44,057 nt of DNA from a virus: positions 1-44,057 of the IMG/VR virus record IMGVR_UViG_3300030020_000046; one strand, written 5' to 3'. The first letter of the stretch is position 1. Every line of letters begins with the position of its first letter. A program made the translations under genes and the position numbers. This document shows positions 1,572-36,307 of this stretch, piece after piece. The notes beneath the pieces were generated by a model that did no database searches, had not been told where the DNA came from, and saw only the letters and a list, made by a program, of their open reading frames with translations.

Positions 1572-1802
1572 ATGTATATCACAGGTTCAATCGTGGATTT
1601 CGAGAAAAGGCTTCACCAGTTGCCAACAGGCCAGAGTGATTTCACAACAGGATTTTTAGTCGAAGGGTCGGGGTATTCGGGCCAAATTACCGCCGCCCAA
1701 CTTAAAAAATGGAATAACGAATTCCAGAAGATAGGCGAAACCATTCTTAATAGTGAAAAATATTATTCAACCCCCGCCTTATCTATTCCTACGAATGGGT
1801 AA
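1572..1802 (+). CDS. Small protein, tandem paralogue 1
   Basis: 76 residues of unknown function. The start at ATG 1572 is chosen because the protein then begins MYITGSIVDFEKRLH, which aligns with the start of the next gene (MYISGTFQDFETRLH), and because the promoter-like motif lies 20 nt upstream. An upstream TTG would add 23 residues with no counterpart in the paralogue. A second shared block lies near the middle: QITAAQLKKWNNEF here and IDASYLIQRWDREF in the paralogue. There is no signal peptide or membrane segment. It sits just ahead of a large fibre-like gene, so a role in fibre assembly or attachment is possible but unproven. Confidence 0.6.
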   Translation: MYITGSIVDFEKRLHQLPTGQSDFTTGFLVEGSGYSGQITAAQLKKWNNEFQKIGETILNSEKYYSTPALSIPTNG

Positions 1803-1805
1803 AAT

Positions 1806-2066
1806 ATGTATATTTCTGGGACATTCCAAGATTTCGAAACAAGGCTGCATGAGTTTTTTTTTGTAGCAGCAGATTGGCCATCTTTTGCCCAAGAAGCGGC
1901 TTCTTATTATTCTTTTGTGAATTCTATTGATGCATCATATCTTATCCAGAGATGGGACCGCGAATTCATTAAAAAAGGCTTTTTGTTTGTGGGGGCGTTT
2001 TCTATTGATGATAATGGACAGTATATCTTGGATGGAAATGGCAATCCAATCATAAATGTCAATTAA
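1806..2066 (+). CDS. Small protein, tandem paralogue 2
   Basis: 86 residues, starting 3 nt after the stop of the preceding paralogue, so the two are probably translated from one mRNA. It shares the N-terminal MYI-G-DFE-RLH pattern and the later W-EF block with that gene. Its C-terminus (DDNGQYILDGNGNPIINVN) is a short Gly/Asn-rich hairpin-like repeat of the kind seen in fibre proteins. The product is soluble, with no known domain recognised. Function is unknown; the position just upstream of the tandem SGNH protein suggests a tail-related role. Confidence 0.6.
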   Translation: MYISGTFQDFETRLHEFFFVAADWPSFAQEAASYYSFVNSIDASYLIQRWDREFIKKGFLFVGAFSIDDNGQYILDGNGNPIINVN

Positions 2067-2093: not shown

Positions 2094-4859
2094 ATGAATA
2101 TAAGAAAAATTTTTTCAACAATCTTTGCCACCTTGTTTTTAACGGGAATATGTTTTGGGGGTATTTGGACGAACTATCCAGTGGTAAGTTCTTTAAATGG
2201 TAACGAGACATTTTTAGTTGCGAGCGGTACGAATACAGAACAAATCACTGGAGGAAATTTAAGTACTTGGGCGGTACAAAACAAGTCAACTAATTTGATT
2301 TTAACTGGTTTACCTTCTTATTCCCCCGAAATAGTTTCAATTGTCACCAACGCGACATCCACTATTCCGTCTGGTTGGACCGAGTATTATATCACACCAT
2401 ATAATTTAGCCACAAATCCATTTACTATTTTGGGTTCTTATGGATGGTTTGTTTATGGAGGGCCGGGAAATGGAAAAAATGGAGTTTATTATCCAAATAC
2501 AAATGCCATAACTGGATATCTACAATTTGTTGGTGTAGGTCTTGAGGATATATCTCAGATTTCACTAGGTTTTAGATTTTATGGAAATGTTTTCGCAATA
2601 GACCATTTTCCTACTGGGAATTGCACACCTATGATAATTGTAGATGGAATTGTACAGTACGCCGACAACAATCCATACTCTTATGCTATACCAAGCGATG
2701 GTGCATTAGAATGGCTAACTACAGTCACTTTAAATACAACTAATTGGCATACAGTGATAATTAAAAATATCAGTACTTGTATCGGGATTGAAACCCCAGT
2801 ACAATTTGCCATTGAACCGTTGCTACCAAAAACACCCGTTTATGTATGGGGTGATAGTGTAACAGAAGGAACTGGAGCACCTAACGGTAATGGTTCTTAT
2901 TTTGATTATTTGAATATCGACCCTGATTGTAAAAATATTTGGATTAATAATATGGGAGAAGGTGGTACTGGTTGGGTAAATACTGACCCATCAGGACCAA
3001 GAACGAATTTGTGGGGAAGAATTGTGGATATGCAAACTTTAAATCCTAAATATATGATAATTTCCCTTTCTAATGATGGGGGTTATGCAACTAATAGTAT
3101 CCTAACAAACAATACTCTTTATACCTATTGTTATATGGCTATGACAAATATTGTCGCCTTATTCCCAAATCAAAATAGATTACTTGGCGGTGAAATGCCT
3201 TTAGGTCAACAGTCAAATCCGGGAGATAATACTTGGTTAGCTACTCAGATTATAAGAGCCGCTGGTTTGGCTTCTGGGTTTATAACTTCTTCAAATCAAT
3301 TTATTGACTATACTAGTCCAGCACTAATAACGGGTAATGCTAATGTAGGTTCAATTGTAAACGGTACCGCCATTACACTTACTGACCCTTATTATGGTTC
3401 AGCTTTTCCGCATCCTAATGTCGAAGGTCATTATAATATCGCTCAAAGAATTAAAGCAGCAATGATGGCTAATTGGCCTGAGCTATTTATCCCTACAAAT
3501 AGTGTGGCCAACCTTAATGGTAGTTTTAATGGCACCTTCACCGGCAACGGCAACGGGCTTACAAATGTGAACGCGGGCGCTCTGGTGGGAGGAATAGGCA
3601 CGCTGGTAATAACGAATGCTGTTTTGCTGAACGTGAGTGGCAACGGCGGCGGGTTGACGAACTTGAGCGGCTATAACCTTGTTGGACAATTAGGCCAACA
3701 AAACGGTGTAACGGTAACGGTGGTACAAACGAACGCGAGCTATACCACATACGGTTATTTTGGGAATACAAACTGGTTTGGTTATACAATCAGCGGCAAT
3801 ACTTACGGAGGAAATTTAAGCCTGACAAATTCACCATATTTTTCGTACTGGTGTGGTTATCTAACAAACTATCTTGCGTTTGGCGCGGTTAATGGCCTAA
3901 CGGGTTGGTCTGATGTGGGTCCACCGGGTGCTCCATACGCGCCACAAAATCACGATTTAAGGGGTGAAACGCAATTTATCGGCAATAGTCTGGGTCTGCT
4001 TCTGTATTCCGGCCCTTATTGGTTTAATAGTGACACACTTCCCGAAGTCCAGAAAAATTGGGTCACTCTGACGCCCCAAAGCGGGAATATTCTCTCATTA
4101 GTTTTGACGTGGCCGAACTTTGGATTTCACCACATTGAAGTGCATGGAGTGGGAGGAACAATCGTGGGAATGTTTGAGCCGGTGACAAACTCCTTTGTTT
4201 CAGTTCAAAAACCCTATTCGACCGGCATTATTGGGGGGGACAGCATCACTGCGGGGGTCGGTAGTTCTTCGGGTGCTGACGGTCCTGATGCTTACCCTTC
4301 GATATTACAGGATACTCTGATGCCTCAAGGGATAAACTTAGTGCCTCAAGCGGAAGGCGGGACGGGTTACATTGCGACCAATATTTACAATGGTCAAGTG
4401 GTCGGGCTTCCAATCATTCAGCGGCTAACAAACTGTATTCTGAACTTTCACCCGAGTTTCATTATTTGGGCGGAAGGCATAAACGACCCCACAAATGGTT
4501 TGTACGCGGCGGCGACCAACGTTTATTTATTGACCAAATCTTTTCTGCCAAACTGCAAGCAAATCGTCATTGCGCCATTCCCTGGAATCACTTCCCCTGT
4601 TGGTTCGGAAGCGCCATCCGACCTGATTATTAGCAATGCGGCGGCGACGTGTGGATTGCCGGTGCTTCTTCCAGAGCCAAACGCGGCGGACTCATGGATT
4701 CAGGGAAGCTATTTAGTCCCCGGCTCGGGAACGGCCTACACTTATTACTCCGGCAACGGACCGCATCCGAATGCGGCAGGGCATCTTTATTACGCCAAGC
4801 AAATCATCAGTTTTGTTATGGCTAATCTTACCACAAACGCCACCCCGGTTATCTGGTAA
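2094..4859 (+). CDS. Tandem SGNH-hydrolase tail protein with signal-like N-terminus
   Basis: 921 residues from ATG 2094 (a GTG at 2079 would add five and would use up the promoter motif). Residues 1-22 are a basic start, a hydrophobic core and a small-residue end (TGICFG), like a secretion signal. Next comes the module WTNYPVV-LNGNETFL-QITGGNL, related to the LTGTELV-type module of phage fibres. There are two SGNH esterase domains: the first with GDS (S255), SND (N327) and PHPNVEGH (H440), the second with GDS (S717), GIND (N797) and PHPNAAGH (H891). Each is preceded by a beta-rich region, as in carbohydrate esterase family 2. A linker at about 470-545 has repeats ending in GNGLTN and GGGLTN. 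The likely role is deacylation of host surface glycan. The second half (from about 3500) is visibly richer in GC than the first, which suggests module acquisition. Confidence 0.72.
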   Translation: MNIRKIFSTIFATLFLTGICFGGIWTNYPVVSSLNGNETFLVASGTNTEQITGGNLSTWAVQNKSTNLILTGLPSYSPEIVSIVTNATSTIPSGWTEYYITPYNLATNPFTILGSYGWFVYGGPGNGKNGVYYPNTNAITGYLQFVGVGLEDISQISLGFRFYGNVFAIDHFPTGNCTPMIIVDGIVQYADNNPYSYAIPSDGALEWLTTVTLNTTNWHTVIIKNISTCIGIETPVQFAIEPLLPKTPVYVWGDSVTEGTGAPNGNGSYFDYLNIDPDCKNIWINNMGEGGTGWVNTDPSGPRTNLWGRIVDMQTLNPKYMIISLSNDGGYATNSILTNNTLYTYCYMAMTNIVALFPNQNRLLGGEMPLGQQSNPGDNTWLATQIIRAAGLASGFITSSNQFIDYTSPALITGNANVGSIVNGTAITLTDPYYGSAFPHPNVEGHYNIAQRIKAAMMANWPELFIPTNSVANLNGSFNGTFTGNGNGLTNVNAGALVGGIGTLVITNAVLLNVSGNGGGLTNLSGYNLVGQLGQQNGVTVTVVQTNASYTTYGYFGNTNWFGYTISGNTYGGNLSLTNSPYFSYWCGYLTNYLAFGAVNGLTGWSDVGPPGAPYAPQNHDLRGETQFIGNSLGLLLYSGPYWFNSDTLPEVQKNWVTLTPQSGNILSLVLTWPNFGFHHIEVHGVGGTIVGMFEPVTNSFVSVQKPYSTGIIGGDSITAGVGSSSGADGPDAYPSILQDTLMPQGINLVPQAEGGTGYIATNIYNGQVVGLPIIQRLTNCILNFHPSFIIWAEGINDPTNGLYAAATNVYLLTKSFLPNCKQIVIAPFPGITSPVGSEAPSDLIISNAAATCGLPVLLPEPNAADSWIQGSYLVPGSGTAYTYYSGNGPHPNAAGHLYYAKQIISFVMANLTTNATPVIW

Positions 4860-4860
4860 C

Positions 4861-4989
4861 ATGACCAAACCCCTCGCCATCCTCAGTCGCATCGCCGGAC
4901 TACAGTACGTTTGCACGAACTCCGCGTTGACGCACGGAATTATCTATACAAATACCGGAGGGTTCCCCCTCAGTGTCGGTACTTTCTAA
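4861..4989 (+). CDS. Small ORF, possible gene remnant
   Basis: 42 codons beginning MTKPLAILSRIAG one base after the upstream stop. The start resembles that of the gene at 6419 (MTKLLAIFLSLL), and both follow a fibre gene ending in TGGTAA. The rest (ending GGFPLSVGTF) does not continue as a signal peptide or any known domain. It may be the fused ends of a deleted fibre gene, or a chance frame in GC-richer DNA. Function unknown. Confidence 0.3.
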   Translation: MTKPLAILSRIAGLQYVCTNSALTHGIIYTNTGGFPLSVGTF

Positions 4990-5042
4990 TATGAGTAAAT
5001 TCATGATTATTTTGATTGGAGTTTTTTTATAACATATTAAAA

Positions 5043-6416
5043 ATGAAAAAATTAACATCCCTATTCTCTTTTATAGCCAGTATTTTATTATTCTATCAGA
5101 CTTCGTTCGCGGGGTCTTGGCTAACTTATTCGCAGGTAACAAACTTAACTGGCAGTGAAACATTTTTGATTGGAAATTCAAATAATACCCAAAACCATCT
5201 AATTATGTCCAGTAATCTATTGAATTGGATTAATCAGAACCTCATTGTAAGCAATTCCACCAGTGGAATTACTAATAATAATGCTGGAGCAGTCACGTTG
5301 ACAAATTCTGGAAATAATATCACTGGCACCTTCATTGGCAATGCGACCTCGGCAACCAGCGCAACGACTGCCTTGACAGCCGGTGTATCCTCCAACCTTG
5401 TGTCTGGCGCTAGCATCACAAACGCAACCCTCACTGGAAATACCACCATAAATAGTTTAACAGTAGTTTCAAATGCAACCTTCTCTAATGTTACGGCTAC
5501 TAATTTTGTTCTTCTTTCTCCGATAATTGGAGATGCTAGTGGGTTGACTAATTGGCAGCACGACATTTTGATTGCGGGTGCGAATGTGACCATAACCAGC
5601 GTTACGAATAGTTCTACAGGCCAGAGAACAAATATGATAGCGGCGAGCGGTGGAGGTGGAGGCAGTATTTTTCCTAGTTTATCCATTACTAACTCTCTCT
5701 ATACTAATGATATTTTATGGGCTGCTTCAAGTGATATTCTTTATTTCTCAGTTTTAAGTGCTTCTGGGTCAAATACGTTCCTATCTGTAGATACAAATTT
5801 AGATATTAATTTAGGAATTAATAGCGGCGGTAATATTAATATTGGAGCTACTGGGTCATATACTACATTTAACGGAGGTTTATCATTCCCTTCTCTCAAT
5901 AATTATAGTATAGGCGCACCTTACGGATTCAATGTTAGCAGTTACTGGGGAGGATTTCAACTTGCAAGCACTTGTCCAATTACTTGGTCAAGTGTCAATA
6001 CTCCGGGTGATTCAACGGTTAATGAAATGGCGTTGATTAGAACTTCTGCATACAATTTATTATTAACTGGAGGGAATACTAATGTTAGTTATGTTACTAG
6101 CGGAGGATTAGGATATTCTCTTCCTATTACCTTGACACTAAATGGCAGCATTCAGGTAACGAATGGAATTGCGTCATACACCGCTCATATTCCAGTTGCT
6201 GTCACCGTTGGAGCGTCAACATTCAATTTCACGAACAATGCACCTGTTGCGTTGGAATGCTATTTTAGCGATGCGGCAGCGTACAGTGTTTCAAAGAACG
6301 GTGTGGCGGTTTACCAATCACTTGCGGGCGACGATTACTTCGTTCTTCAACCCGGAAGTAAATGCGGAATTACCTACTTATCAACCACGCCAGCCATGTT
6401 GACAAATTCGTGGTAA
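5043..6416 (+). CDS. Fibre-like protein with signal-like N-terminus
   Basis: 457 residues from ATG 5043; the TTG at 5016 would put polar residues before the signal and is rejected. Residues 1-27 have MKK, a long hydrophobic core and SFA-G as a likely signal peptidase I site. The next 40 residues repeat the shared module (W-TY-V-LTGSETFL-NLLNW) seen in the genes at 2094 and 11416. Residues about 90-180 are Thr/Asn/Ala-rich low-complexity repeats ending in GDASGLTNW, then a poly-Gly hinge (GGGGGS) near 205. The C-terminal 95 residues look like a compact beta head. No enzymatic motif was found. It is probably a receptor-binding fibre or secreted adhesin-like protein. The GC content varies along the gene, with GC-rich patches near 5330-5420 and after 6120. 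Confidence 0.55.
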   Translation: MKKLTSLFSFIASILLFYQTSFAGSWLTYSQVTNLTGSETFLIGNSNNTQNHLIMSSNLLNWINQNLIVSNSTSGITNNNAGAVTLTNSGNNITGTFIGNATSATSATTALTAGVSSNLVSGASITNATLTGNTTINSLTVVSNATFSNVTATNFVLLSPIIGDASGLTNWQHDILIAGANVTITSVTNSSTGQRTNMIAASGGGGGSIFPSLSITNSLYTNDILWAASSDILYFSVLSASGSNTFLSVDTNLDINLGINSGGNINIGATGSYTTFNGGLSFPSLNNYSIGAPYGFNVSSYWGGFQLASTCPITWSSVNTPGDSTVNEMALIRTSAYNLLLTGGNTNVSYVTSGGLGYSLPITLTLNGSIQVTNGIASYTAHIPVAVTVGASTFNFTNNAPVALECYFSDAAAYSVSKNGVAVYQSLAGDDYFVLQPGSKCGITYLSTTPAMLTNSW

Positions 6417-6418
6417 TT

Positions 6419-9400
6419 ATGACCAAACTCTTAGCCATCTTTTTAAGTCTACTGTTTTTTTGTATCAGTGTTGAGTCCAGCATCTTGCCTTATTCAGCAG
6501 TCATTACTAATGCCGTTAATGAGTATACTCTTGATATGGGAGGTACTAATACTATAGTAGGAGTATTTACTTCAGGTACCAACTATTCATATACTCCTAT
6601 GTGGCCAAACAATGTAAATACTACATGGCAAACTAATCCTATAGGTGTTGTCAATGTTTATGTAGGAAATAGTTCTCCGGCTACTAATTTAGTAGGAACT
6701 CAATGGGTTCCCTATGATGCTAACTTTTCTAATGGGGCATTCAATGCAGGAAGTGTGATAGAGAGTCAGACATCAATAAGATTCACTCCAATAGTAGGAA
6801 GATATGTTACTCTATCATTACTTACTAACCAAAATTGGTCAGCTACAAATGCTTATTGGACACTAATTTCTCCACCAGCAAACCTGATTTGGGATTGTTT
6901 TACTAATCAAATTCACGGTTCTTTAGGTAGTTATACTAACTTGGACGCCGTCGTGGCTGCTACCAATTCCTTAGGTGGAGGATTACTACAATGCTCTTCT
7001 GACCTCAGTTATTATTTGTCAGAGTTAGAAGGAAGACCCGTACCAATCATTTTACCTTCTCAGACTAATTCGTATCCCGGAACTATTTATCGAGTAGTAG
7101 ATTTACAAAACAACGCAACATCATACGCCATACAGAGCAGTAATCTATTAAATGGAGTACTGCCAACAAATATTACAGCAACAATACAAGGAACAAGAGA
7201 AGTTGATTTTACTGGGTGGCCATATATGGATGTTTGGTATGGGGTTTTGAATTTCTTGGAATCTCAGGGGGTTAGATGGGTATATCCTGATGAAGATGGA
7301 GATTATATACCTTATAATTCTGGAGTTTCTTTATCTTCCTTGCCATACAATTTAAACCCGAGTGTAAAAAGTATCTATGCTAATTTTGCAATAGGTGATT
7401 TCTATCCTTGGACGAGAATAGACGGACCTACCAGACAAGGTTATCTGTACTGGTGGAGGAATCACTGGACTAGTACTTACAGTGGGTCATATTTATTTTC
7501 AGGGTCAGAAATTAAGTATGAGGCCGCACTGGGAATAATCAATTCAAATTATACTGAAGGATTCGGCAGTTATCCTCATAATTATAATATAGTAGTTCCC
7601 ACAAGGATATTAGAGATGACTAATCAGGTGATTAATGGAATCTTAGTTGATACTAATTGGTGGGGTTATTTTGGAGGGCAGTTAGTTAATCCGACTAATG
7701 GAGTTTATGATGCTGCTGGATTGGGTTCATATAGTGGAATTGTATTAACTTGGTCACAGTCAAATACTAATTTAAGCACTTGGTTGGCTAATAAAGTGTA
7801 TAATTGTGACACTTCAAGTCCTCCTGATGTTAACTACGCGTTAACGTATAAGTCTTTCTCTAGGTATTATGGTATATATCCTATTGATGATTCTTCATTC
7901 TCTACTAATGCTGCCGAAGTATCTTTAAATACTCCATTTAAATCAACAGGTGATGCTTGGGTTGGTAATCCGGGTTTGCCTATTTCTTATTCAGGAGAAT
8001 ATTGTTATTTATTAACTAACGTAGCTAATAAGGTAACTCAGTTAGGTGATACTAATGCCATTGTGTCCGGTTTAGCCTATGCTAGTTTAAATAGTGCGCC
8101 AACTAATTTTGGTAAACTCCCTAGTAATTTACACATGCAAGTATGTGTATATGGTCAACCCGTACTCCCAACGTCATCTTCCTATAATGCCTCCATTTCT
8201 AATAATTGGGTAAATTGGAGCAGTATGACTACAAATCTCGGGTCGTATGGGTATGATTTATTATTGACTGATTACGCCCAGAAAAATCCTTTATTAATAA
8301 TTCCTGAAGTAAACGGTTTGATTGATAGAATAAAATTCTTGCAAAGCAAAGGAGTATTTGAGGCAGGATGTCAGGGCAATCCAGACCAGATACCTTATAA
8401 TCCTTGGGATTATTATGCTTACCCGCGTACATGGTGGAACAACACGCTGACTGAATCTACTGTATTAACAGAGTTTTTTACTGGGTATTATTCTGAGTCG
8501 TCAGTACCTATGTTAAATTTTTATAATGCCTTTGAACAGAGTGTTGTAACTAATAATATAGCACTTCATGGATTAAGCAGTGGATATTCTGAATCTATTT
8601 TTCCGGGTACTTTTACATTTCCAGTATTATATTCGATGCAGACTAATCTTACTTTAGCATATACTGAATGTACTAATTGGGTAACTTTATCCAGACTAAA
8701 TACCGTATCGAATCAGTTTGCATGGATACTTCAACAATTAAATTTAACTGGAACTAATTTAAATAATCCTACGGTATTCGCTGGAGTAGGCACTAATTCT
8801 ATTAAAACATTGCAAAGCAGTAACTTCGTAGCCATAGCAACTACAGCAGGAAATCCTTATTTTGGAGCAAATGGTGGTTATAATCAGTCAGATTACTCTC
8901 AACAGTATGGAGGACAGTATTCTTGGACTTTAGTAAATCAGTATAGCAGCATACAGAATACGCTTAATTTTACGAATAGTGGATACTACAGAATTATAGT
9001 TAACGGTGGATACGGATATTTAGGGAATCCCGGATTATGCAGAGTAACTATTGGAGCTAACTCAGCTTCAGTGACTTTCACTAATGAGGGAGATGCTTCA
9101 GGGTATATCTCAGGATATACAAACGTACTGTATGTTAATTCGGGTGCCAATACTATTCAGATTGATTCTTTTAACGAGACAAATAATTCTGCCAGTCCCG
9201 GAGTAATATACACGGCTTCGTTGCAATATTTATCAAACTCTCCTTCATTAAGTATTAATGTAACTAACTATGGAGCGTTAGGAGACGCAGTTCAATTTTA
9301 CGTCAATACAACTTCCAATTTAAATTTGGTAACTACAACAAATATCATCTCGAATAGTGTTATTGGAGACGCCATTGAAGTATTCAACGCAGGACCAATT

Positions 9401-11392
9401 ACTCCTTTTGGAACGAATAGCTTTAATATCTATACCAACGGGTATTTAGACCTTGTAGCTACCGTTACCAACGTGGTTAATGGAACAAACCTCTATCTTT
9501 CCAAGGTATGCTCCAACACTTTGACTCATACTTTCGCTACGTTAGGCCATGATAATGAATCTGCATTTAACACTGCACTCACTGCTTTATATACAAATAA
9601 TACTGGTTCTAGCATTCTATACATCCCTACTGGAAATTATCTAATTCTAGCCACGAATCAAGATGTTACATATAACTGGTATGGAGTTCATCTGAGTCAG
9701 GGTGGATTTACGATTCTGGGTGATGGAACTAATCTTACTCATCTAATAGGTCAAGGAGCTAGAATATCAGAACCTGTTGCCATGGGTAGTGAAGGTCCGG
9801 GAATTTTTCCATCTGGAACGAATTCTCCACAAAGAGGATTCATGTTTGATGAATTTACACCGACAAATTTAGTAGGGACAAATACTCCTCTTATATTTAC
9901 AGGGATTAATATTGATGGTGGAATTCCTAATGTGGCTACGGAGGATAACTTTAGGAATAATAGTTATGGTGTTGGTGGACAAAATCAAGTGGATGGATTT
10001 GGATGGGATGTTACCCACGATGCTTTTGTGGCGACATTCCAATGGACTACAAATGTTCCTAATTGGAATAGTACTGATTTTAGCGTTTTGTCTACTAATA
10101 TGTTGTGGCAAGGATGGCAGGGCGAAGTATTAAAGAATCCAGACGGTTCAACTAACGCTAATGTCTTTACTTATATTAATACCACGTTTTATGATTGTAG
10201 AGCAGACTGCGCTAATGCTGGTGCTAATATGATTATTACAAATTGCACATTCAATGATGTATTGGCTCCAATTGAATGGTATGGAAACAGATGTACTATA
10301 CCTAATTATTTGGAAAATTGCCTTATAACTAATTGTTTTGGCGAATGCTCTATTGGATTCTCAGCTAGTTATAGTAATATACCATTCTTCTATTTCATTA
10401 ATAACGACTGCTACTATACAAATCCTGCGGGCGGTAATATCTTCCTTAATCTCAATCACTTGGTTAATTGCGTGGTATCTAACAACTATTTCTTTAATTC
10501 TGGAAATAATGATATCGCTATCGTCACTGGTTCTGACAGTGCAGAAACTGCCTTTACCTGTCAATCAAACATCTTAATTACAAGCAACCTTTTCGTGAAT
10601 GCTGACATTGCTGTATCTTCATTTCCTAGCCTTACATCTCTTAATCCGTCTCTGGATATAAGTCACTCAGAGAATATATACGTCACTGGTAATACGATGC
10701 AAAGTACGAATATAGCTAATCCAATTGAAACCTTGTGGTTAACCTACGGCTGGACGACTAATATATTCATCAGCAATAATAATTATAGCCAGTTCAATTC
10801 TCCCGGTTCAAACAGTGTCATAGTAGCTCCAGCCCTGTACAATTACGGTTTAACATGTGACTCTTCGCTGATTACTAATCTAGTGTACAAGGCAATTGTT
10901 TATACGTATATGACCAATGGCGTCACATACACTAATAATGTTGTTCCTACGAATTCTGGAAACACTATACTTTCCAGCAATTATTTTCAAATAAACTATC
11001 CTTCTATTTCCACGAACAATAACTACTGGACTGAGATAAGTAACAGCGGTGGTATAGTAGGAACAAATGGAATTTCCACAAACTATGTCAGTTATGCTTT
11101 GGGTTCAAAATATTATTTAACTTCCCCGAATAGACCGTTAGTAATCATCAACAATGATTCTAACGCTATTCCCGTCAATTCTCAGATTATAATTTATAAT
11201 TCCGGGCCTAGCAACGATTTCATATACGAGAATTCTCTATCTGGGGCAGTGATAACTCTAACGAACAATACCTCGACAGTATTTAACTGGAACTCAGGAA
11301 CTTGGACTACGTCTGGTGGAGGCAGCAGTGGCGGTGGTGGCGGAAAAGTAACCATAAGTACTTTAATAGTCCATACTTTTATATCACAATAA
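6419..11392 (+). CDS. DUF4838-like glycosidase plus pectate-lyase-fold tailspike
   Basis: 1657 residues from ATG 6419, 2 nt after the previous stop. Residues 1-20 form a signal-like hydrophobic start. Residues about 155-720 resemble DUF4838 proteins of PVC-group bacteria, related to the alpha-glucuronidase N-terminal and catalytic region: the segment LESQGVRWVYPDEDGDYIP near 278-297 is the typical block. Residues about 795-940 look like a carbohydrate-binding beta sandwich. From about 943, NVTNYGALGDA and DNESAFNTAL (near 1044) match the opening of pectate-lyase-superfamily right-handed beta-helices, followed by many short Asn-rich rungs to about 1540. A Gly/Ser stretch (GGGSSGGGGG) lies near the C-terminus. 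The likely role is binding and degrading an acidic surface polysaccharide. Catalytic residues could not be fixed by eye. Confidence 0.62.
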   Translation: MTKLLAIFLSLLFFCISVESSILPYSAVITNAVNEYTLDMGGTNTIVGVFTSGTNYSYTPMWPNNVNTTWQTNPIGVVNVYVGNSSPATNLVGTQWVPYDANFSNGAFNAGSVIESQTSIRFTPIVGRYVTLSLLTNQNWSATNAYWTLISPPANLIWDCFTNQIHGSLGSYTNLDAVVAATNSLGGGLLQCSSDLSYYLSELEGRPVPIILPSQTNSYPGTIYRVVDLQNNATSYAIQSSNLLNGVLPTNITATIQGTREVDFTGWPYMDVWYGVLNFLESQGVRWVYPDEDGDYIPYNSGVSLSSLPYNLNPSVKSIYANFAIGDFYPWTRIDGPTRQGYLYWWRNHWTSTYSGSYLFSGSEIKYEAALGIINSNYTEGFGSYPHNYNIVVPTRILEMTNQVINGILVDTNWWGYFGGQLVNPTNGVYDAAGLGSYSGIVLTWSQSNTNLSTWLANKVYNCDTSSPPDVNYALTYKSFSRYYGIYPIDDSSFSTNAAEVSLNTPFKSTGDAWVGNPGLPISYSGEYCYLLTNVANKVTQLGDTNAIVSGLAYASLNSAPTNFGKLPSNLHMQVCVYGQPVLPTSSSYNASISNNWVNWSSMTTNLGSYGYDLLLTDYAQKNPLLIIPEVNGLIDRIKFLQSKGVFEAGCQGNPDQIPYNPWDYYAYPRTWWNNTLTESTVLTEFFTGYYSESSVPMLNFYNAFEQSVVTNNIALHGLSSGYSESIFPGTFTFPVLYSMQTNLTLAYTECTNWVTLSRLNTVSNQFAWILQQLNLTGTNLNNPTVFAGVGTNSIKTLQSSNFVAIATTAGNPYFGANGGYNQSDYSQQYGGQYSWTLVNQYSSIQNTLNFTNSGYYRIIVNGGYGYLGNPGLCRVTIGANSASVTFTNEGDASGYISGYTNVLYVNSGANTIQIDSFNETNNSASPGVIYTASLQYLSNSPSLSINVTNYGALGDAVQFYVNTTSNLNLVTTTNIISNSVIGDAIEVFNAGPITPFGTNSFNIYTNGYLDLVATVTNVVNGTNLYLSKVCSNTLTHTFATLGHDNESAFNTALTALYTNNTGSSILYIPTGNYLILATNQDVTYNWYGVHLSQGGFTILGDGTNLTHLIGQGARISEPVAMGSEGPGIFPSGTNSPQRGFMFDEFTPTNLVGTNTPLIFTGINIDGGIPNVATEDNFRNNSYGVGGQNQVDGFGWDVTHDAFVATFQWTTNVPNWNSTDFSVLSTNMLWQGWQGEVLKNPDGSTNANVFTYINTTFYDCRADCANAGANMIITNCTFNDVLAPIEWYGNRCTIPNYLENCLITNCFGECSIGFSASYSNIPFFYFINNDCYYTNPAGGNIFLNLNHLVNCVVSNNYFFNSGNNDIAIVTGSDSAETAFTCQSNILITSNLFVNADIAVSSFPSLTSLNPSLDISHSENIYVTGNTMQSTNIANPIETLWLTYGWTTNIFISNNNYSQFNSPGSNSVIVAPALYNYGLTCDSSLITNLVYKAIVYTYMTNGVTYTNNVVPTNSGNTILSSNYFQINYPSISTNNNYWTEISNSGGIVGTNGISTNYVSYALGSKYYLTSPNRPLVIINNDSNAIPVNSQIIIYNSGPSNDFIYENSLSGAVITLTNNTSTVFNWNSGTWTTSGGGSSGGGGGKVTISTLIVHTFISQ

Positions 11393-11398
11393 AAAATA

Positions 11399-11408
11399 GT
11401 GTAATATA
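11399..11408 (+). promoter_or_regulatory. GTGTAATATA motif (candidate late promoter)
   Basis: GTGTAATATA begins 17 nt before the ATG at 11416, with a short AAGG between them that could serve as ribosome binding site. Confidence 0.45.
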
Positions 11409-11415
11409 AGGTATA

Positions 11416-13284
11416 ATGAATATTAAAAGATTTTTCTTTGTAATGGCGGTGACTTTTCTAGTAACAGGGACATGTTTTGGTCTTAATTGGACGAATTATC
11501 CAATAACGGGCGTTTTAAATGGCAACGAGACGTTTTTGGAAGCTAGCAATTCTATAACCTACCAAATTACTTCGGCTAATTTATTTAATTGGTTTACAAA
11601 AAGTGCAACTAATGCTAATGAAATATGGATTTCTCCTGTTGGTATTAATGGCTCTGGCAACGGTAGTCAGGCAAATCCTTATATAGCCACTAATGCTGTA
11701 ACATTTGACGGTTTATTTCCTTGGACTAATTTTTTTCCAATTAATACGAAAATCCATTTAAATGCCGGTACATTTCATGACACTAATGGACTGGTTATGC
11801 AGACTGGTTATGATATTGATGGGGCTGGACGAAACAAAACAATTATCCAGCGTGACCCCGGTGCTGGTGGTTATAATAATGATATTATTGGTGGGAATGT
11901 TGGGTATCTGCCACTTGGTCGTAGTAATATGATGGTTGAGAATCTTACTATTGACATGAATGAGCAAAATCAAGCTTGGAGTAACACTTATTATAGAGCA
12001 GTTACTTTAACTGGTGATAATGCTACGATTAAGAACGTCGAAGTAATTAACTGGGGATTAGCTATTACAAATCAAGAACAGTTTATACTTAATATTTGGA
12101 CTTATGGCGGTAATTTTTATGGCTCAGTACAAACGAACGCTGTTCATCATGCTTTAATTGATGGTTGCATTTTGGGTTCTTGTGCTAATATGGTTATGGC
12201 TCCTAATGCTGGAGTGGATTTTCTTAGTATGGGTGGATATGGTTTTAACGGCAATGCTTCAAATAATTCACCACCAGTACTTTCCATACCAGACACTCTA
12301 ACCGTTACAAATGGCTGGCTGTTGGGCGGTGAGATTAAAAACTGTTCCATGGACACTTCAGTTACGACAGATACGACAGGAGGATTAATGACTCCGGGAT
12401 ATTTTAATTTTATTTGTAATTTTGGGTTTATCAAAGGTTTTAAGGTAGACGGAAATTATATTCGTGATATTAACCAAATCGCTCTCGCTTCTGCCGCAGT
12501 TGGAATTTACTCTGAGTCTAATGCTTGGCAGGACTGGGAAATCTGTAATAATTACATGGTTAATGTTTTTAAAGGTATTTTTATAAATTCCACAACTTCT
12601 TATCTTGAAAATAATTTAAATATCCATGATAATACAATTTTCTATTCTGGCAGTCAAAACTCAATTGGAATTCATATTTTAGGATTAACTTCCACAAACC
12701 TAAATAATGTAACGATTAGAAATAACATGTCCTCAGCTTATTTAGGGGCAGTAGGCACAAATACTGAAGCACTTTTACTTTATAATACGACGAATACCGT
12801 AGTAACAGGAAATTACTTTAATAATTACGGAGGGTTGGATGCCTATATTTATAATAATGTTTCAATGCTGACTTGGTTTGCCAACTGGAATGGGCAAGGA
12901 ACTAATCCTATTCAAAATGCGACTAATACTTATTATCCAAACACTTTAAAGGCAGACGTATTTCAAGGTGGGATATTTAGTGGTCAGTTACTTGTAATAG
13001 AAAATCCAATATCAATTACGTCTTGTTGGACAAATACTTATGGCGGTCGTGGGACTTTAACTATTAGTTACGCTATAACAAATTCTGTTTCTTCACCAAT
13101 TGCATCATTTTTAATAACGAATTATTCATCTGGTCAATTTAGAAAACGATTGGTCAACGCGCCATTGACATCAAATACTGGTAATGATATTAGTGATATT
13201 TCTATCCCCGTTTCTCCAAATGATATTTTAGCTTTTACAAATCTAGTAAACGTGGGATTAGTAAGTTCCGAATTCACTCAATAA
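11416..13284 (+). CDS. Right-handed beta-helix tailspike with signal-like N-terminus
   Basis: 622 residues. The first 70 closely match those of the protein at 2094, also at DNA level: a hydrophobic start ending VTGTCFG, then WTNYPI-LNGNETFL-QITSANL. From about residue 73, EIWISPVGINGSGNGSQANPY is the usual beginning of secreted parallel beta-helix proteins (modules of the type WVSPTGSD-G-NP). Rungs follow with repeated N-x-I/V and G-N-x patterns, for example NVTIRNN and NTVVTGNYF, up to about 510. The last 110 residues form a separate beta-rich head. It is likely a tailspike that binds or cleaves polysaccharide. No catalytic site was identified. It has its own GTGTAATA-type motif and a short AAGG. 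Confidence 0.62.
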   Translation: MNIKRFFFVMAVTFLVTGTCFGLNWTNYPITGVLNGNETFLEASNSITYQITSANLFNWFTKSATNANEIWISPVGINGSGNGSQANPYIATNAVTFDGLFPWTNFFPINTKIHLNAGTFHDTNGLVMQTGYDIDGAGRNKTIIQRDPGAGGYNNDIIGGNVGYLPLGRSNMMVENLTIDMNEQNQAWSNTYYRAVTLTGDNATIKNVEVINWGLAITNQEQFILNIWTYGGNFYGSVQTNAVHHALIDGCILGSCANMVMAPNAGVDFLSMGGYGFNGNASNNSPPVLSIPDTLTVTNGWLLGGEIKNCSMDTSVTTDTTGGLMTPGYFNFICNFGFIKGFKVDGNYIRDINQIALASAAVGIYSESNAWQDWEICNNYMVNVFKGIFINSTTSYLENNLNIHDNTIFYSGSQNSIGIHILGLTSTNLNNVTIRNNMSSAYLGAVGTNTEALLLYNTTNTVVTGNYFNNYGGLDAYIYNNVSMLTWFANWNGQGTNPIQNATNTYYPNTLKADVFQGGIFSGQLLVIENPISITSCWTNTYGGRGTLTISYAITNSVSSPIASFLITNYSSGQFRKRLVNAPLTSNTGNDISDISIPVSPNDILAFTNLVNVGLVSSEFTQ

Positions 13285-13354: not shown

Positions 13355-14065
13355 ATGAGTACTAAAAATAAAAAACAGCAATCCCGCCAGTCTTCAGAAA
13401 ACCCAATCATTAAAGAAAGGTTTACTTATAATGAAAAACAATTAGAAATAATAAAAACGGGATTATCCAAAGAGTGCAAATGCATTTATATAAATGGAAT
13501 TTGGGGTACATCAAAATCGTATTTAGCGGTATTAATTTCTCTAAAGCTTTTATATCAAAACAAAATTAACCAAATAATCTATGTAAGAAATCCAGTAGAA
13601 TCTTCTTCTTTTGGTATCGGTTACATTCCCGGAGATATTGCCTCAAAAATGCTACCATTCAATCAAATATTTTTTGATAAATTATCTGAACTACTTTCTA
13701 AATCTGAGATAGATAGGTTAACCAAAGAAAATAAACTCAATTGCCTTCCATTAGGATTTGCTCGTGGTTTATCAATTACGTCTGCCTCTATCATAGTTGA
13801 CGAAGCCGCTTCACTTACTTATGATGATATATTACTTCTACTTAGTCGGTGCGGAGAACATACAAAAATATTCTTTATTGGAGATAGTATTAACCAAAAT
13901 GATATAGGAAGTAAATCTGGTTTTAAGAAAATGTTTGATTTATTGTCGGATTCTGAAAGTAAAGAAAATGGTATTTTTACCTTTGGAATGAATGAGGAAA
14001 AAGATATTGTCCGCTCGGGTTTTGTTAGGTTTATAATGAAAAAGACTGGAAAAATAAAATTCTAA
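13355..14065 (+). CDS. phoH: PhoH-like ATPase
   Basis: 236 residues, the length of a stand-alone phage PhoH domain. These are P-loop ATPases of superfamily 1 helicase type with a proposed role in RNA metabolism or stress. Visible blocks: YNEKQLEII near 25 (Q-motif-like), the P-loop GIWGTSKS at 48-55, IIYVRNPVE, the Walker B SIIVDEA at 145-151 and FIGDSINQNDIG (sensor region, family form GD-xQ-D). The P-loop has Ser where G-x4-GK-S/T expects the second Gly, so nucleotide binding may be altered. Lys and Ser are kept. The gene stands alone behind a GTGTAATTA motif and is followed by a 47-codon frame. Identification by the set of motifs is good; the cellular role is not evident from context. Confidence 0.82.
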   Translation: MSTKNKKQQSRQSSENPIIKERFTYNEKQLEIIKTGLSKECKCIYINGIWGTSKSYLAVLISLKLLYQNKINQIIYVRNPVESSSFGIGYIPGDIASKMLPFNQIFFDKLSELLSKSEIDRLTKENKLNCLPLGFARGLSITSASIIVDEAASLTYDDILLLLSRCGEHTKIFFIGDSINQNDIGSKSGFKKMFDLLSDSESKENGIFTFGMNEEKDIVRSGFVRFIMKKTGKIKF

Positions 14066-19955: not shown

Positions 19956-22208
19956 ATGGCATATGACTCGTCAATTAGGCTAAAGCAATTAAACCAATCA
20001 GAATTATCTGGTTTCGTGTCTGGGATTCTTGCACTATTTCCATTTCAAAATATCTCTGGTAATCTAATTCCTTCTGGTTCAGGGGTTTACAATATTGGGT
20101 CATCGTTATATCCTTATGCTCAAATATTCGCTAATGAACTAAGTTTGGCTTCTGGTTCTGGAATAAATTTTGGCAATACGAGTTTTAATGCTTATACTTC
20201 TGGAAGCGGGGCATATATAGACGTTGGTGGATATGTTTTTTCTTTTAATGGTGACTATGTTTTTATTCAGGGGCCAAGTGGATTACAGGGTTTGTCTGGG
20301 GTGCAGGGGCCGACAGGTGCGACAGGCATAAGTGTTACTGGAATTACTTATAACACTACCAGTCATATACTTTCTTTTTACCTATCTAATAATACATCAA
20401 CTGGTTTTAATTTTCAAGGACTAAGTGGAGCTACTGGTACTTCAGTTACTGGGTTTTTCCAAAGTGGTAATTATATTCTTCCTCAATTTAGTAACTATCA
20501 GGGGTTGGGTGCGCCGATTTCTTTAATAGCTGGACCACAGGGTATGCCCGGAGGTGTTACTCTTAATTTCCAACAATCGGGTACATCTTATACTTCTGGC
20601 GCTAATCCTCCCGACTCTGGTTTTCCAAGTCAAGTAATTATCAATCCTTATTTTAGTGGTAATAGTTTCCCAGATATTACTCTGATGCGCGGGATGAGTT
20701 ATACCTTAAATTCTAGTGGATTAAATACTCACACATTGACATCTGGAGATATTACTATTATGTCTGGGTTTTTCTCTGGACAGTCCCTTCCGTTCCAAGC
20801 CGGAAATAAAATTAACTATTACGAAGACGCTTATAACACAGGTTACTGGAGGCCAGTCTTTTTTCCGAGCGGTACCGCAACTGGATTTTATAACTCTAAT
20901 ACTACCCCAAGTTTATTTGTAGAAACGACTAATAGCGTGGTTTACTATAACTTAGTCAATAATCCTTATAGGACACAGATTTCTTTTACCACTAGCTTCG
21001 CGGCACAGAGTCAGTATCAATATGGGTTTGTACTTTATACATTAGGTCAAGATACGACGACAGATTCAATGATTTTGAGTTCATCAACATCTACTGGGTT
21101 TGCTGTTGTGGTTGGTAATGCTATTTTCTCTTCGCAAGCTGGTCCTGCGGGAATTCAAGGACCAATTGGACCAAGTGGAAATATAGGTCCAACTGGTAAT
21201 ATAGGACCAGTTGGAGCAACAGGAGAAAATGGTGCGGATGTCGTTGGATATACATATTCTGGCGTCGGTAATAATATTTATATTCAGTTCCAATTAGCGA
21301 ATGGAATAACTCAGCCTTGGATTCCATTACCAGCGGGAGGACCATCAGGAGCTTCTGGCGCAGTTGGCACATTAAGTAATAATTTTCAAGGAAACTTTGC
21401 TTCTGGTACCACATACTACAATGATAATATAGTATTCTCTTCGGGGTCATCCTTTATCAATACAGGAACTACTATTAGCGGAATTTACCCCCCTAATGTT
21501 CCTTGGCAGATGCTTTGTCAATCCGGTACCATCGGCGCAACTGGTCCTGTAGGGCCAACGGGGGCAACTGGAGCAGCGGGTTCGATATCCAATCATTTTT
21601 CGGGAACTTATTCTGGACTACCGAATGTGTATATTCCTAATTCAATAGTTGTACAGTCAGGTTCAAGTTATATTAATACCGGCGTATCTAATATAAGTGG
21701 TATCGCGCCTCCGAGTGTACCATGGCAAATTTTAGCGTCGGGTGGAGCTACTGGCCCTCAAGGAGCGGCGGGTGTGCCAACGACTTTGAGACCTGAAAAT
21801 TTCTTTAGTTTGGTATATGGGAACGGTATTGGTTCTGCTAGTAGTGGAGTTTTATTGGACCCCGCGAATTACGACATGTACTCACTACAGATATCAAGTG
21901 GGTCATCTGGTGCAGCGGCTGGAGTTAACCCAGTTTCCATAACTATTTCGGGCGACAATTTCGCCACTGGACAATCATTAATAATAAAGGTGCGAAATAT
22001 AAACGTACCACAGAATAATGGAACTTCATCACAGCTTTTTAATTTAAGTTCTGTTACGGTAACGGGAGTTTTAAAACAAATAAAATGGCCATCTAACGCG
22101 TATTCCTTTCCAAATTCTGGAACAGCCAATGTCTATTCGATAATAAGATTCCCTGATGAGACTGGATATTCGGCATTTTACGGTACATATGCTAATCCAT
22201 ATCAATAA
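19956..22208 (+). CDS. Collagen-like tail fibre with shared docking N-terminus
   Basis: 750 residues. The first 20 (IRLKQLNQSELSGF at 7-20) are almost the same as in the fibre at 35135, also at DNA level, and probably dock to the virion. Four collagen-like Gly-x-y stretches lie at about 106-124, 396-426, 527-542 and 597-606 (for example GPIGPSGNIGPTGNIGPVG). Between the last three lie two copies of a roughly 60-residue module with IVFSSGSSFINTG and PPNVPWQML, the pattern found between collagen repeats in other phage and bacterial fibres and related to chitin-binding type modules. The C-terminus is a beta-rich head. It lies between terminase and portal, an unusual place for a fibre. It follows a GTGTAATA motif and AAGGG. 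Confidence 0.75.
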   Translation: MAYDSSIRLKQLNQSELSGFVSGILALFPFQNISGNLIPSGSGVYNIGSSLYPYAQIFANELSLASGSGINFGNTSFNAYTSGSGAYIDVGGYVFSFNGDYVFIQGPSGLQGLSGVQGPTGATGISVTGITYNTTSHILSFYLSNNTSTGFNFQGLSGATGTSVTGFFQSGNYILPQFSNYQGLGAPISLIAGPQGMPGGVTLNFQQSGTSYTSGANPPDSGFPSQVIINPYFSGNSFPDITLMRGMSYTLNSSGLNTHTLTSGDITIMSGFFSGQSLPFQAGNKINYYEDAYNTGYWRPVFFPSGTATGFYNSNTTPSLFVETTNSVVYYNLVNNPYRTQISFTTSFAAQSQYQYGFVLYTLGQDTTTDSMILSSSTSTGFAVVVGNAIFSSQAGPAGIQGPIGPSGNIGPTGNIGPVGATGENGADVVGYTYSGVGNNIYIQFQLANGITQPWIPLPAGGPSGASGAVGTLSNNFQGNFASGTTYYNDNIVFSSGSSFINTGTTISGIYPPNVPWQMLCQSGTIGATGPVGPTGATGAAGSISNHFSGTYSGLPNVYIPNSIVVQSGSSYINTGVSNISGIAPPSVPWQILASGGATGPQGAAGVPTTLRPENFFSLVYGNGIGSASSGVLLDPANYDMYSLQISSGSSGAAAGVNPVSITISGDNFATGQSLIIKVRNINVPQNNGTSSQLFNLSSVTVTGVLKQIKWPSNAYSFPNSGTANVYSIIRFPDETGYSAFYGTYANPYQ

Positions 22209-32999: not shown

Positions 33000-33009
33000 A
33001 ATGATAGGT

Positions 33010-34719
33010 ATGAGAAACATTTGGAAACCAGAAGAAGATAAGATTATTATTGATAAGTATGAGACTATTCCGTTGCTGGAGATAGTAAAACTGCTCCCCG
33101 GTAGAAATTATAACGCCGTAAAAGCAAGGCAAACATTTTTGGGCGTTTGTAAGAAATACCAAAAAGACGAATTATTCTTTGAAGTACCAAATACGGTTAA
33201 TAGTAGTATTAGTGGAATTATAGCAAGCGATGGGCATTTATCACCCAAGAAAGGAAACAGGGCTGGAAGAGTATGCCTCGGCATTAACACGAAAGACATA
33301 TTTTTGCTGCAAGAATTTAATCGTTTAGCCAAATCCAATTATATGATTTCCTCTACTGAAAAACAAGCAATATTTCTTGACAAAAGAAGCGGAAAAACCT
33401 ACCATTATTTAGATAAAAAATCTAGATTGGAAATTTCTTCAGCCGATAAATGGTTAGAAGACTTATATAAAAATTGGAATATCCATTCCGGCAAAAAGAG
33501 TCATAATCTCGAACCGCCAAAAGAATCAAACAACCTAGACAATTATCTTGCTTATATTTCGGGGATTATTACTGGAGATGGTTCTATTTTTGTAAACGGT
33601 CCTCAAGCCGAAAATTGTATTAGAATATCTATTTTAGGAACGGAGAAACTCCTCATTTGGATAAAGTCAACGGTAGAAGCTTTTCTTAATGACAAAATTA
33701 AAGCTAGTATTCATCCAGAACATAAAAACAAGAACCTATATACCTTTAATATAAATGGCATCAACGCCGCTAGAATCATTCATAAAATTAATTCCATGGA
33801 AGTACTAAAATTGGCTCGCAAATGGGAAAAACCAGAAGTATTAGAAATTATTGAAATATTAAAAAATAAATATCCCTCATTATTTAATGAGCCATTAAAA
33901 AATAAAATACTTTCAATAAATCAATTACTTAATCAATGTGAAGTGGAATTTACACAAGAAGATAAAATATTTAATATACCGAGTAAAAATATAATTATTA
34001 AGGTCGTAGAACTATATAATTCTAAAGAACCAAATGGCCAATTAAATTTTTTAAAACAATCTGTTGATAAACGAGTTATACAAATCTTCGAGAATGAACT
34101 CTTAGACAAACCTAAAATCGTCTTCAGTCGCCTCAAACACTACTTGGGGCTAGTCAAAAGACGTATTTTTGCGCGTAAATGTGAAGTCCGACTAATTGAT
34201 TTTAATACCAAAAACAAATTTCTAGATAAATACCATATCCAAGGACAGGATTATGGTTCGGGAATATTCTTGGGACTTTTCTATAAAAACCGGCTGGTTA
34301 ACGTAATGACATTCTCGGTTAGAGATAACGACTATGAACTATCCCGCTTTTCGGGGATAAATCATTTTAATGTCTGCGGCGGGGCATCTAAATTATTATC
34401 TTTTTTTGAGAAAAATTACCATCCACATCACGTTTTCTCCTTTGCTGATAAAAGATGGTCTGTCGGGAATCTTTATTACCAATTAGGCTTTCAATTAACC
34501 AAAGAAAATGAACCAAGTTATTTTTATTTCCACCCCCCGGAAAAGAAACTCCATCATAAGTTTGGATTTAGGCATAAGTATTTAATTAATAAGTTGTTAA
34601 ATTACGACGCTAGTAAAACTGAATGGGAGAATATGAGCAGCCATGGATGGCAACGCATCTACGACTGCGGCTTAATAAAATTTGAAAAATCATATACAAA
34701 TACCCAAGTTCCCCTATAA
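33010..34719 (+). CDS. LAGLIDADG homing endonuclease with HTH and extra C-terminal domain
   Basis: 569 residues from ATG 33010 (ATG 33001 would lie immediately after the TATAAT box). Residues 1-42 are a Myb/SANT-like HTH (WKPEEDKIIIDKY, LLPGRNYNAVKARQ). Two LAGLIDADG motifs follow: SGIIASDG (68-75, D74) and SGIITGDG (184-191, D190), so one chain can form the full active site. From about 385, a C-terminal domain has LGLFYKNRLVNVMTF, GGASKLLSFF, FADKRWSVGNLYYQLGF and RIYDCG, the block found at the end of several phage homing endonucleases and possibly GNAT-like. It is a free-standing mobile gene inserted between the capsid and neck genes, with its own promoter, and presumably targets a nearby site. 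Confidence 0.82.
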   Translation: MRNIWKPEEDKIIIDKYETIPLLEIVKLLPGRNYNAVKARQTFLGVCKKYQKDELFFEVPNTVNSSISGIIASDGHLSPKKGNRAGRVCLGINTKDIFLLQEFNRLAKSNYMISSTEKQAIFLDKRSGKTYHYLDKKSRLEISSADKWLEDLYKNWNIHSGKKSHNLEPPKESNNLDNYLAYISGIITGDGSIFVNGPQAENCIRISILGTEKLLIWIKSTVEAFLNDKIKASIHPEHKNKNLYTFNINGINAARIIHKINSMEVLKLARKWEKPEVLEIIEILKNKYPSLFNEPLKNKILSINQLLNQCEVEFTQEDKIFNIPSKNIIIKVVELYNSKEPNGQLNFLKQSVDKRVIQIFENELLDKPKIVFSRLKHYLGLVKRRIFARKCEVRLIDFNTKNKFLDKYHIQGQDYGSGIFLGLFYKNRLVNVMTFSVRDNDYELSRFSGINHFNVCGGASKLLSFFEKNYHPHHVFSFADKRWSVGNLYYQLGFQLTKENEPSYFYFHPPEKKLHHKFGFRHKYLINKLLNYDASKTEWENMSSHGWQRIYDCGLIKFEKSYTNTQVPL

Positions 34720-35134: not shown

Positions 35135-36307
35135 ATGGCATTCGATTCGACAATTAGGCTAAAACAACTAAACCAATCTGAACTTTCTGGTTTTATTATT
35201 TCTTTGGTTCAGAGTTATTTATCTGGTAATACGGGTGTTCTAACTGGGTCTTTTTACCCGCTTAATACTAACCCAAATGATTATCAAGAATCAGGTGTTT
35301 TTGTTAGTCAAAATACTTTAGATAGTGCAATTAACCAAGCTACCTCCTACGTTTTAAGTCAAATACCCATAATAGAAACAAGCGGTTTTCTTTTAAATAC
35401 AGGAAATCAAACACTTTCTGGTAATTTAACTGTAAGTGGTTCGGTTAATAGTACAACGGGATATTATATTAATTCGACACAAATTGCTGATAATCATGCA
35501 AATGGTTATTTTAATCGTTTCAATATAAATAGCGGATTTTTATTTTTAGCGTCTTCATATACTGGAGGCAGTATGAATATGTATCAAGCTGGTAATAGTT
35601 GTTGGGCTATGTATAACAACAACGTCGCTGGAGGAGACACTAATTATACCATATCTGCAAACGGAAATAATGGCTATACATTCGTTGCTAGGGGTTCTTC
35701 TAACCAATTTCAACTTTATGATTATCAAACATTAACTAATATATTAACTATTGATGGAAGTAATAATGATAATATTGGTTTTTTTAATGACAGTCCTCAA
35801 TATACATTGGATGTGAGCGGCGATGGAAATTTTACTAGCGGAATTTATATAAATGGAAATATTGTTGCTCAAGACTCGACTGTTGTTCACTTAAATGGAT
35901 TTGAATCCATTGGTGGTTCCAAAGTCTTTAATGCAACTCAATATTTTAATTTTCCACTAAATATTGATTCTTCAATTAATGCATACAGCGGTATTACTAC
36001 ATCATCTTCTTTTGGACTACAGACTGGCACACAAACGACATTGGATTGGAAAAGTCGTTTAACTTATGATTCATCTGGTAATCAATCAATTGATTGGCAA
36101 AATAGACAATTAAAAGCTGGTTCTTTGGTTTTAATTGATTGGTTTAATGGTATAATTTCGGGTAGTTGGAACGTTACCTCATTAAATGCTAACAGTTATT
36201 CTATTGGGGGAGTTTCTGGTAAATCGACTACTATATCATATATTAAAACGGGTGGAGCAACTGGAACAATGACTTTTACCAATGGTCTTTTAACGTCTAA
36301 CACATAA
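35135..36307 (+). CDS. Tail fibre with shared docking N-terminus
   Basis: 390 residues. The first 20 (IRLKQLNQSELSGF) match the collagen-like fibre at 19956. The shaft includes a pattern common in long fibres near 210-245: NIGFFNDSPQYTLDVSG followed by GIYINGN. No S74 chaperone motif is present at the C-terminus, which is Gly/Thr/Ser-rich (GGATGTMTFTNGLL). It is likely trimeric and a receptor binder. It follows GTGTAATTA, with no strong Shine-Dalgarno. Confidence 0.68.
   Translation: MAFDSTIRLKQLNQSELSGFIISLVQSYLSGNTGVLTGSFYPLNTNPNDYQESGVFVSQNTLDSAINQATSYVLSQIPIIETSGFLLNTGNQTLSGNLTVSGSVNSTTGYYINSTQIADNHANGYFNRFNINSGFLFLASSYTGGSMNMYQAGNSCWAMYNNNVAGGDTNYTISANGNNGYTFVARGSSNQFQLYDYQTLTNILTIDGSNNDNIGFFNDSPQYTLDVSGDGNFTSGIYINGNIVAQDSTVVHLNGFESIGGSKVFNATQYFNFPLNIDSSINAYSGITTSSSFGLQTGTQTTLDWKSRLTYDSSGNQSIDWQNRQLKAGSLVLIDWFNGIISGSWNVTSLNANSYSIGGVSGKSTTISYIKTGGATGTMTFTNGLLTSNT

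Follow-up and report, generated by a model that had tools for sequence, protein, structure and literature searches.

Signal-peptide proteins with fibre- and enzyme-like bodies are encoded in an optional slot upstream of phoH in a tailed phage

The stretch of DNA analysed here (the window) is a virus record of 44,057 bases with genes almost entirely on the plus strand, encoding PhoH, a T4-type terminase large subunit (TerL) and a tail tape measure protein. Because a record of 100,200 bases (L006, also called G001) is among the relatives with identical TerL, g1 and g4 (genes defined below), the phage genome must be at least about 100 kb. The closest terminases of named phages are less than 25% identical to that of the window. 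No phage-type integrase was found when we looked for one in this phage, and an integrase reading was rejected; promoter and terminator scans gave no excess over shuffled sequences. Two endonuclease genes were seen, one HNH-like by eye (positions 278-1418) and one of the LAGLIDADG type (33001-34719), and HNH-like copies recur at varying sites across relatives. By eye, the remaining genome of G001 (L135-L139) encodes epimerase (sugar-nucleotide)-, transketolase- and glycosyltransferase-like proteins, which suggests phage-made glycan synthesis.

Between two small genes of a conserved family (MYITG..RLH) and phoH lie four genes, g1 to g4, whose features are collected in Table 1. They start with ATG at 2094, 5043, 6419 and 11416, and the open reading frames of g1, g2 and g3 open further upstream, at GTG 2079, TTG 5016 and ATG 6362, respectively. 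A short reading frame between g1 and g2 (MTKPLAILSRIAG.., positions 4861-4989), with a start like that of g3 (MTKLLAIFLSL..), is possibly a decayed signal-peptide gene.

Table 1. Features of the locus between the MYITG-family genes and phoH (a slash marks a predicted cleavage site)
Feature	Position	Strand	Basis
Small MYITG..RLH-family protein, conserved; left border of slot	1572..1802	+	family alignment, 30-76% identity in relatives; HMM matches
Second copy, MYITG..RLH small family; left border of slot	1806..2066	+	family alignment; HMM matches
g1, 921 aa: signal peptide, module, GDSL-like domain, GNGNGLTN linker, GDSL hydrolase	2094..4859	+	
g1 predicted signal peptide, cut CFG/G	2094..2159	+	scorer
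g1 module W..YP..ETFL..QI..NL..W	2160..2282	+	alignment/profile
g1 GDSL-like domain 1	2745..3473	+	weak likeness to domain 2 (24.5%, E 0.01); motif reading
g1 GDSL domain 2	4236..4784	+	PF13472, E 4e-13
g2, 457 aa: signal peptide, module, repetitive shaft-like middle, C-terminal domain	5043..6416	+	
g2 predicted signal peptide, cut SFA/G	5043..5111	+	scorer
g2 module	5112..5240	+	
g3, 1657 aa: signal peptide, DUF4838, then beta-helix-like part (by eye); without module	6419..11392	+	
g3 predicted signal peptide, cut VES/S	6419..6478	+	scorer
g3 DUF4838 domain	7988..8515	+	PF16126, E 1e-9
g4, 622 aa: signal peptide, module, probable beta-helix body (by eye)	11416..13284	+	
g4 predicted signal peptide, cut CFG/L	11416..11481	+	scorer's own cut 4 residues earlier, VTG/T
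g4 module	11482..11604	+	
phoH-like gene; right border of slot	13355..14065	+	PF02562, E 4e-34; order conserved in relatives

The N-termini were scored with a heuristic of our own that looks for a basic n-region, an uncharged hydrophobic core and a small-x-small site. In a calibration with 73 genes of E. coli K-12, it gave a positive call for 12 of the 13 exported proteins, for 1 of the 15 in the inner membrane and for none of the 45 in the cytosol. The predicted cuts are MNIRKIFSTIFATLFLTGICFG/GIW in g1, MKKLTSLFSFIASILLFYQTSFA/GSW in g2, MTKLLAIFLSLLFFCISVES/SIL in g3 and MNIKRFFFVMAVTFLVTGTCFG/LNW in g4, and by this E. coli-calibrated heuristic each protein has the basic n-region, the core of 10-16 hydrophobic residues and the small-x-small site of a Sec/SPase I substrate. 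The first-pass annotation had described a cluster of four genes with secretion-signal-like N-termini at this locus; they are where it placed them, and all four score positive, with no poor score among them. Shuffled N-termini passed an earlier version of the scorer in 1.4% of cases. Across the 78 genes of G001, five pass, namely g1-g4 and the N-terminus of an NAD-epimerase-like Rossmann protein, a false positive; the other long SG-rich proteins of the structural block carry no signal. Since only these four genes and one false positive pass among 78, and since the module described below again follows a signal peptide in diverged relatives, chance is excluded as the source of the signal peptides. 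Two more specific readings were rejected: the lipobox [LVI][ASTVI][GAS]C of lipoproteins is absent (the residue preceding C is I in ICFG and T in TCFG), and the C-terminal PEP motif, transmembrane helix and basic tail of PEP-CTERM/exosortase substrates have no match in G001. No signal for secretion beyond the outer membrane was seen in g1-g4.

In g1, g2 and g4 a module of about 41 residues, W..YP...L.G.ETFL...QI..NL..W, begins at the predicted cleavage site, and g3 lacks it, in agreement with the first-pass annotation, which had assigned a common module to three of the genes. A profile search of the records at hand recovered six distinct full modules, those of g1, g2 and g4 and one each in the relatives L013, L014 and L037, and all six directly follow a signal peptide; none occurs without one. 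The signals of L013, L014 and L037 have diverged, yet the small-x-small and G-x-W junctions are kept, so that the junctions look alike (CFG/G.W, SFA/G.W, CNA/G.W, VFG/G.W and VQA/G.W). A degenerate DNA pattern of the module found only known loci and chance frames, one strict module pattern run against 84,980 genomes gave two hits, both by chance, and a module match is absent from the 124-kb relative G034. The module had also been proposed as the counterpart of the LTGTELV module of phage fibres. A likeness is indeed visible by eye, as in the similar layout of the signal-less fibre L059 MANKKISQLFENPYPRTGDIFPIVQDGVTYKVT, but it reached significance in no search, and no signal-less fibre is among the matches of the module HMM. 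The left-border MYITG gene was considered as a homologue of the module (BLAST E 9e-7, HMM 0.026), but profile-profile comparison gave a probability of 0.2% and we do not claim homology. Signal-less repeat proteins at 19956-22208 and 35135-36307 share a different N-terminal module, MA[YF]DS[ST]IRLKQLNQSELSGF, which is found in relatives too.

When the locus is compared among relatives with TerL identities of 63-90%, the gene order is constant, with the small MYITG-family protein followed by phoH and the terminase operon, and what lies between the first two is variable. The slot is empty in L016 and L018 (7 bp) and in L011, L015 and L021 (66-98 bp), most of the empty-slot records being short fragments. 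L117, with a TerL fragment 90% identical, has a slot of 691 bp whose sole gene is an HNH gene on the opposite strand. The slot holds one signal-peptide gene in L013 (534 bp), two in L014 (2,419 bp), three together with a 70-aa membrane protein in L116 (6,691 bp) and four in the window (11,289 bp). The four genes thus fill an optional slot between the MYITG-family gene and phoH, an arrangement that is new here; as an optional insertion between conserved genes it is placed as auxiliary or moron genes are. Of the same-strand slot genes that reach 75 aa, 10 of 10 carry a signal peptide, which is far from chance when the background is about 2.5%, and the slot genes of different phages have at most their N-terminal ~65-90 residues in common.

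Exported genes also gather upstream of phoH in relatives with TerL identities of about 50%, in which signal peptides are found on 38 of the 143 same-strand genes lying up to 12 kb upstream versus 10 of 399 downstream. These counts come from related and hence not independent phages, so that their p value serves as an indication only. The ten downstream genes encode short proteins (at most 166 aa), several of them lipoprotein-like, and the upstream set includes C39-type peptidases, a malectin domain, and PEP-CTERM and autotransporter-repeat proteins. In L042, for example, an exported C39-like peptidase (1407-2000; PF13529, E 2e-13) and a short exported Cys-containing protein (2002-2400) lie upstream of phoH, and the arrangement is similar in L047, L048, L051, L066 and L074 (TerL ~48-50%). 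L037 encodes a malectin (carbohydrate-binding) signal-peptide protein (4128-4628) beside a beta-roll signal-peptide protein. Upstream of the terminase operon, L080 (1-4209) and L079 (285-2402, minus strand) have signal-peptide genes whose products combine PEP-CTERM-like C-termini with beta-strand repeats of the autotransporter type and appear to be exosortase substrates carried by phages, and PEP-CTERM matches were found in the relatives G031 and G030 (the latter below the cut-off). This PEP-CTERM cargo hints at a diderm, exosortase-bearing host, perhaps of the Verrucomicrobiota.

The bodies behind these N-termini have both enzyme- and fibre-like traits. Domain 2 of g1 has the GDS, GIND and HPN motifs of SGNH/GDSL hydrolases, but in block V the canonical Asp ahead of HPN is replaced in both g1 domains, which leaves hydrolase activity uncertain. 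Shaft-like repeats run through g1 and g2, and by eye g4 and a portion of g3 look like beta-helices; the TN dipeptide makes up 2.7-3.5% of g1-g4 versus at most 1.6% of all other genes of at least 240 aa, and many structural-block proteins are SG-rich. An AlphaFold model of g4 alone was unusable (pLDDT 33), the minimal homologue in L013 gave a weak beta-sandwich model (pLDDT 54) with which Foldseek found nothing significant, and PDB sequence searches returned no useful match. The body of the L037 signal-peptide protein resembles beta-roll proteins that lack a signal and are encoded near the portal gene of L080, L073 and L070, and some cargo may therefore be fibre-derived; together with the fibre-like bodies, this likeness makes a virion role conceivable for the cargo.

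The main rival to export is that g1-g4 are alternative virion fibres or spikes carried on the particle, with the hydrophobic N-terminus cleaved or serving as an anchor or trimerisation helix. The shaft-like repeats, the module layout, which by eye is similar to that of N-terminal modules of signal-less fibres, the beta-roll body of L037 and the structural genes on the same strand all favour it. We nonetheless regard it as unlikely, since the slot of close relatives is empty or lacks a signal gene, signals are missing from the other long SG-rich proteins in this phage's structural block, and the small-x-small junctions keep a constant position. Tail fibres are expected in the structural block and in all close relatives, whereas these genes lie outside that block in an optional slot, and g1-g4 have no match in PHROG (E 0.01) and none in INPHARED save for the GDSL part of g1; the identification as phage tail-type proteins in the first-pass annotation is thus not established. 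That the signal-peptide scores mislead, the N-termini being membrane-lytic or signal-anchor elements, is highly improbable: the scorer is home-made, but its calibration, the short hydrophobic cores and the cleavage motifs kept in diverged homologues argue against it.

It is also conceivable that g1-g4 are host-like secreted carbohydrate-degrading enzymes, auxiliary metabolic genes that serve cell nutrition or the breakdown of environmental polymers rather than adsorption or release. Enzyme-type domains are present, the PEP-CTERM cargo of relatives is host-like, and published precedents exist in the GH5 endomannanase and chitosanase of soil viruses (PMC9485262). We consider this quite improbable, since three of the four proteins carry a module so far found only in these phages, with no real match to the strict pattern in the genomes searched, and the make-up of the cassette is unlike a metabolic pathway.

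The export signals, and the slot that is empty or filled by other exported proteins in relatives, lead us to suggest that g1-g4 are probably sent out of the infected cell rather than being ordinary virion parts. We favour reading the cassette as accessory exported cargo whose bodies are fibre- and enzyme-like (GDSL esterase, DUF4838), not as core tail fibres, and we think it reasonably likely that g1-g4 are an optional cassette of exported cargo acting on glycans in a tailed phage whose genome measures some 100 kb or more. Action on glycan after export had been proposed for these genes before; the export-type signals, the post-signal module and the GDSL and DUF4838 domains fit it, and we infer actual export, enzyme activity and benefit from these sequence features. 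During infection, the proteins would cross the inner membrane through host Sec and be trimmed by signal peptidase I, so that in mature form three of them would start with the W..YP..ETFL module. Beyond the cytoplasm they may bind and trim envelope or neighbouring glycans through the GDSL esterase or deacetylase, DUF4838 and beta-helix-like bodies, and they could remain in the periplasm or exit via a host secretion system or at lysis. By altering or occupying surface glycans they might allow progeny to escape trapping on debris or exclude kin phages, and receptor removal or occupation is the benefit we would favour. A free receptor-binding protein, in that case one that lacks a signal peptide, reportedly blocked adsorption of its own phage (PMC12946066), which makes receptor occupation a workable idea without implying that it happens here. 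More tentatively, the slot might be dedicated to Sec-exported fibre-derived proteins, in which bodies like those of tail fibres follow a signal peptide and a post-cleavage module, released or displayed outside the cell as decoy or receptor-destroying fibres separate from those of the virion.

To our knowledge, the phage proteins for which export through host Sec is known are mostly lysis proteins and small exclusion proteins. Morons and superinfection-exclusion lipoproteins are likewise optional genes between core genes and are often exported; the cassette differs in lacking a lipobox and in its much larger, multi-domain proteins, several to a slot. Tail fibres and tailspikes with esterase or beta-helix bodies have similar shaft-like repeats, GDSL- or beta-helix-like bodies and N-terminal module layout, but the cassette has signal peptides, is optional, lies outside the structural block and lacks PHROG matches. 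SAR/Sec endolysins and spanins (PMC12571629, PMC10194101) also use host Sec, but they are short lysis proteins, whereas here glycan-type proteins of 457-1657 aa occupy a cargo slot. Soil viruses encode glycan-active auxiliary proteins, a GH5 endomannanase and a chitosanase, whose genes are similarly optional and of glycan-enzyme type in environmental phages (PMC9485262); signal peptides are unmentioned there, whereas here the slot is a dedicated one, a phage-type module is shared and each filler gene that reaches 75 aa has a signal peptide. Our searches of open papers turned up no description of such an arrangement.

If this reading is true, phages maintain a swappable exoproteome, here in a conserved slot that holds only exported multi-domain proteins of glycan type and that is filled in some and unfilled in other close relatives, one of them 90% identical in TerL. 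The interval that separates the MYITG gene from phoH would then be a simple genomic handle for finding such exported phage proteins.
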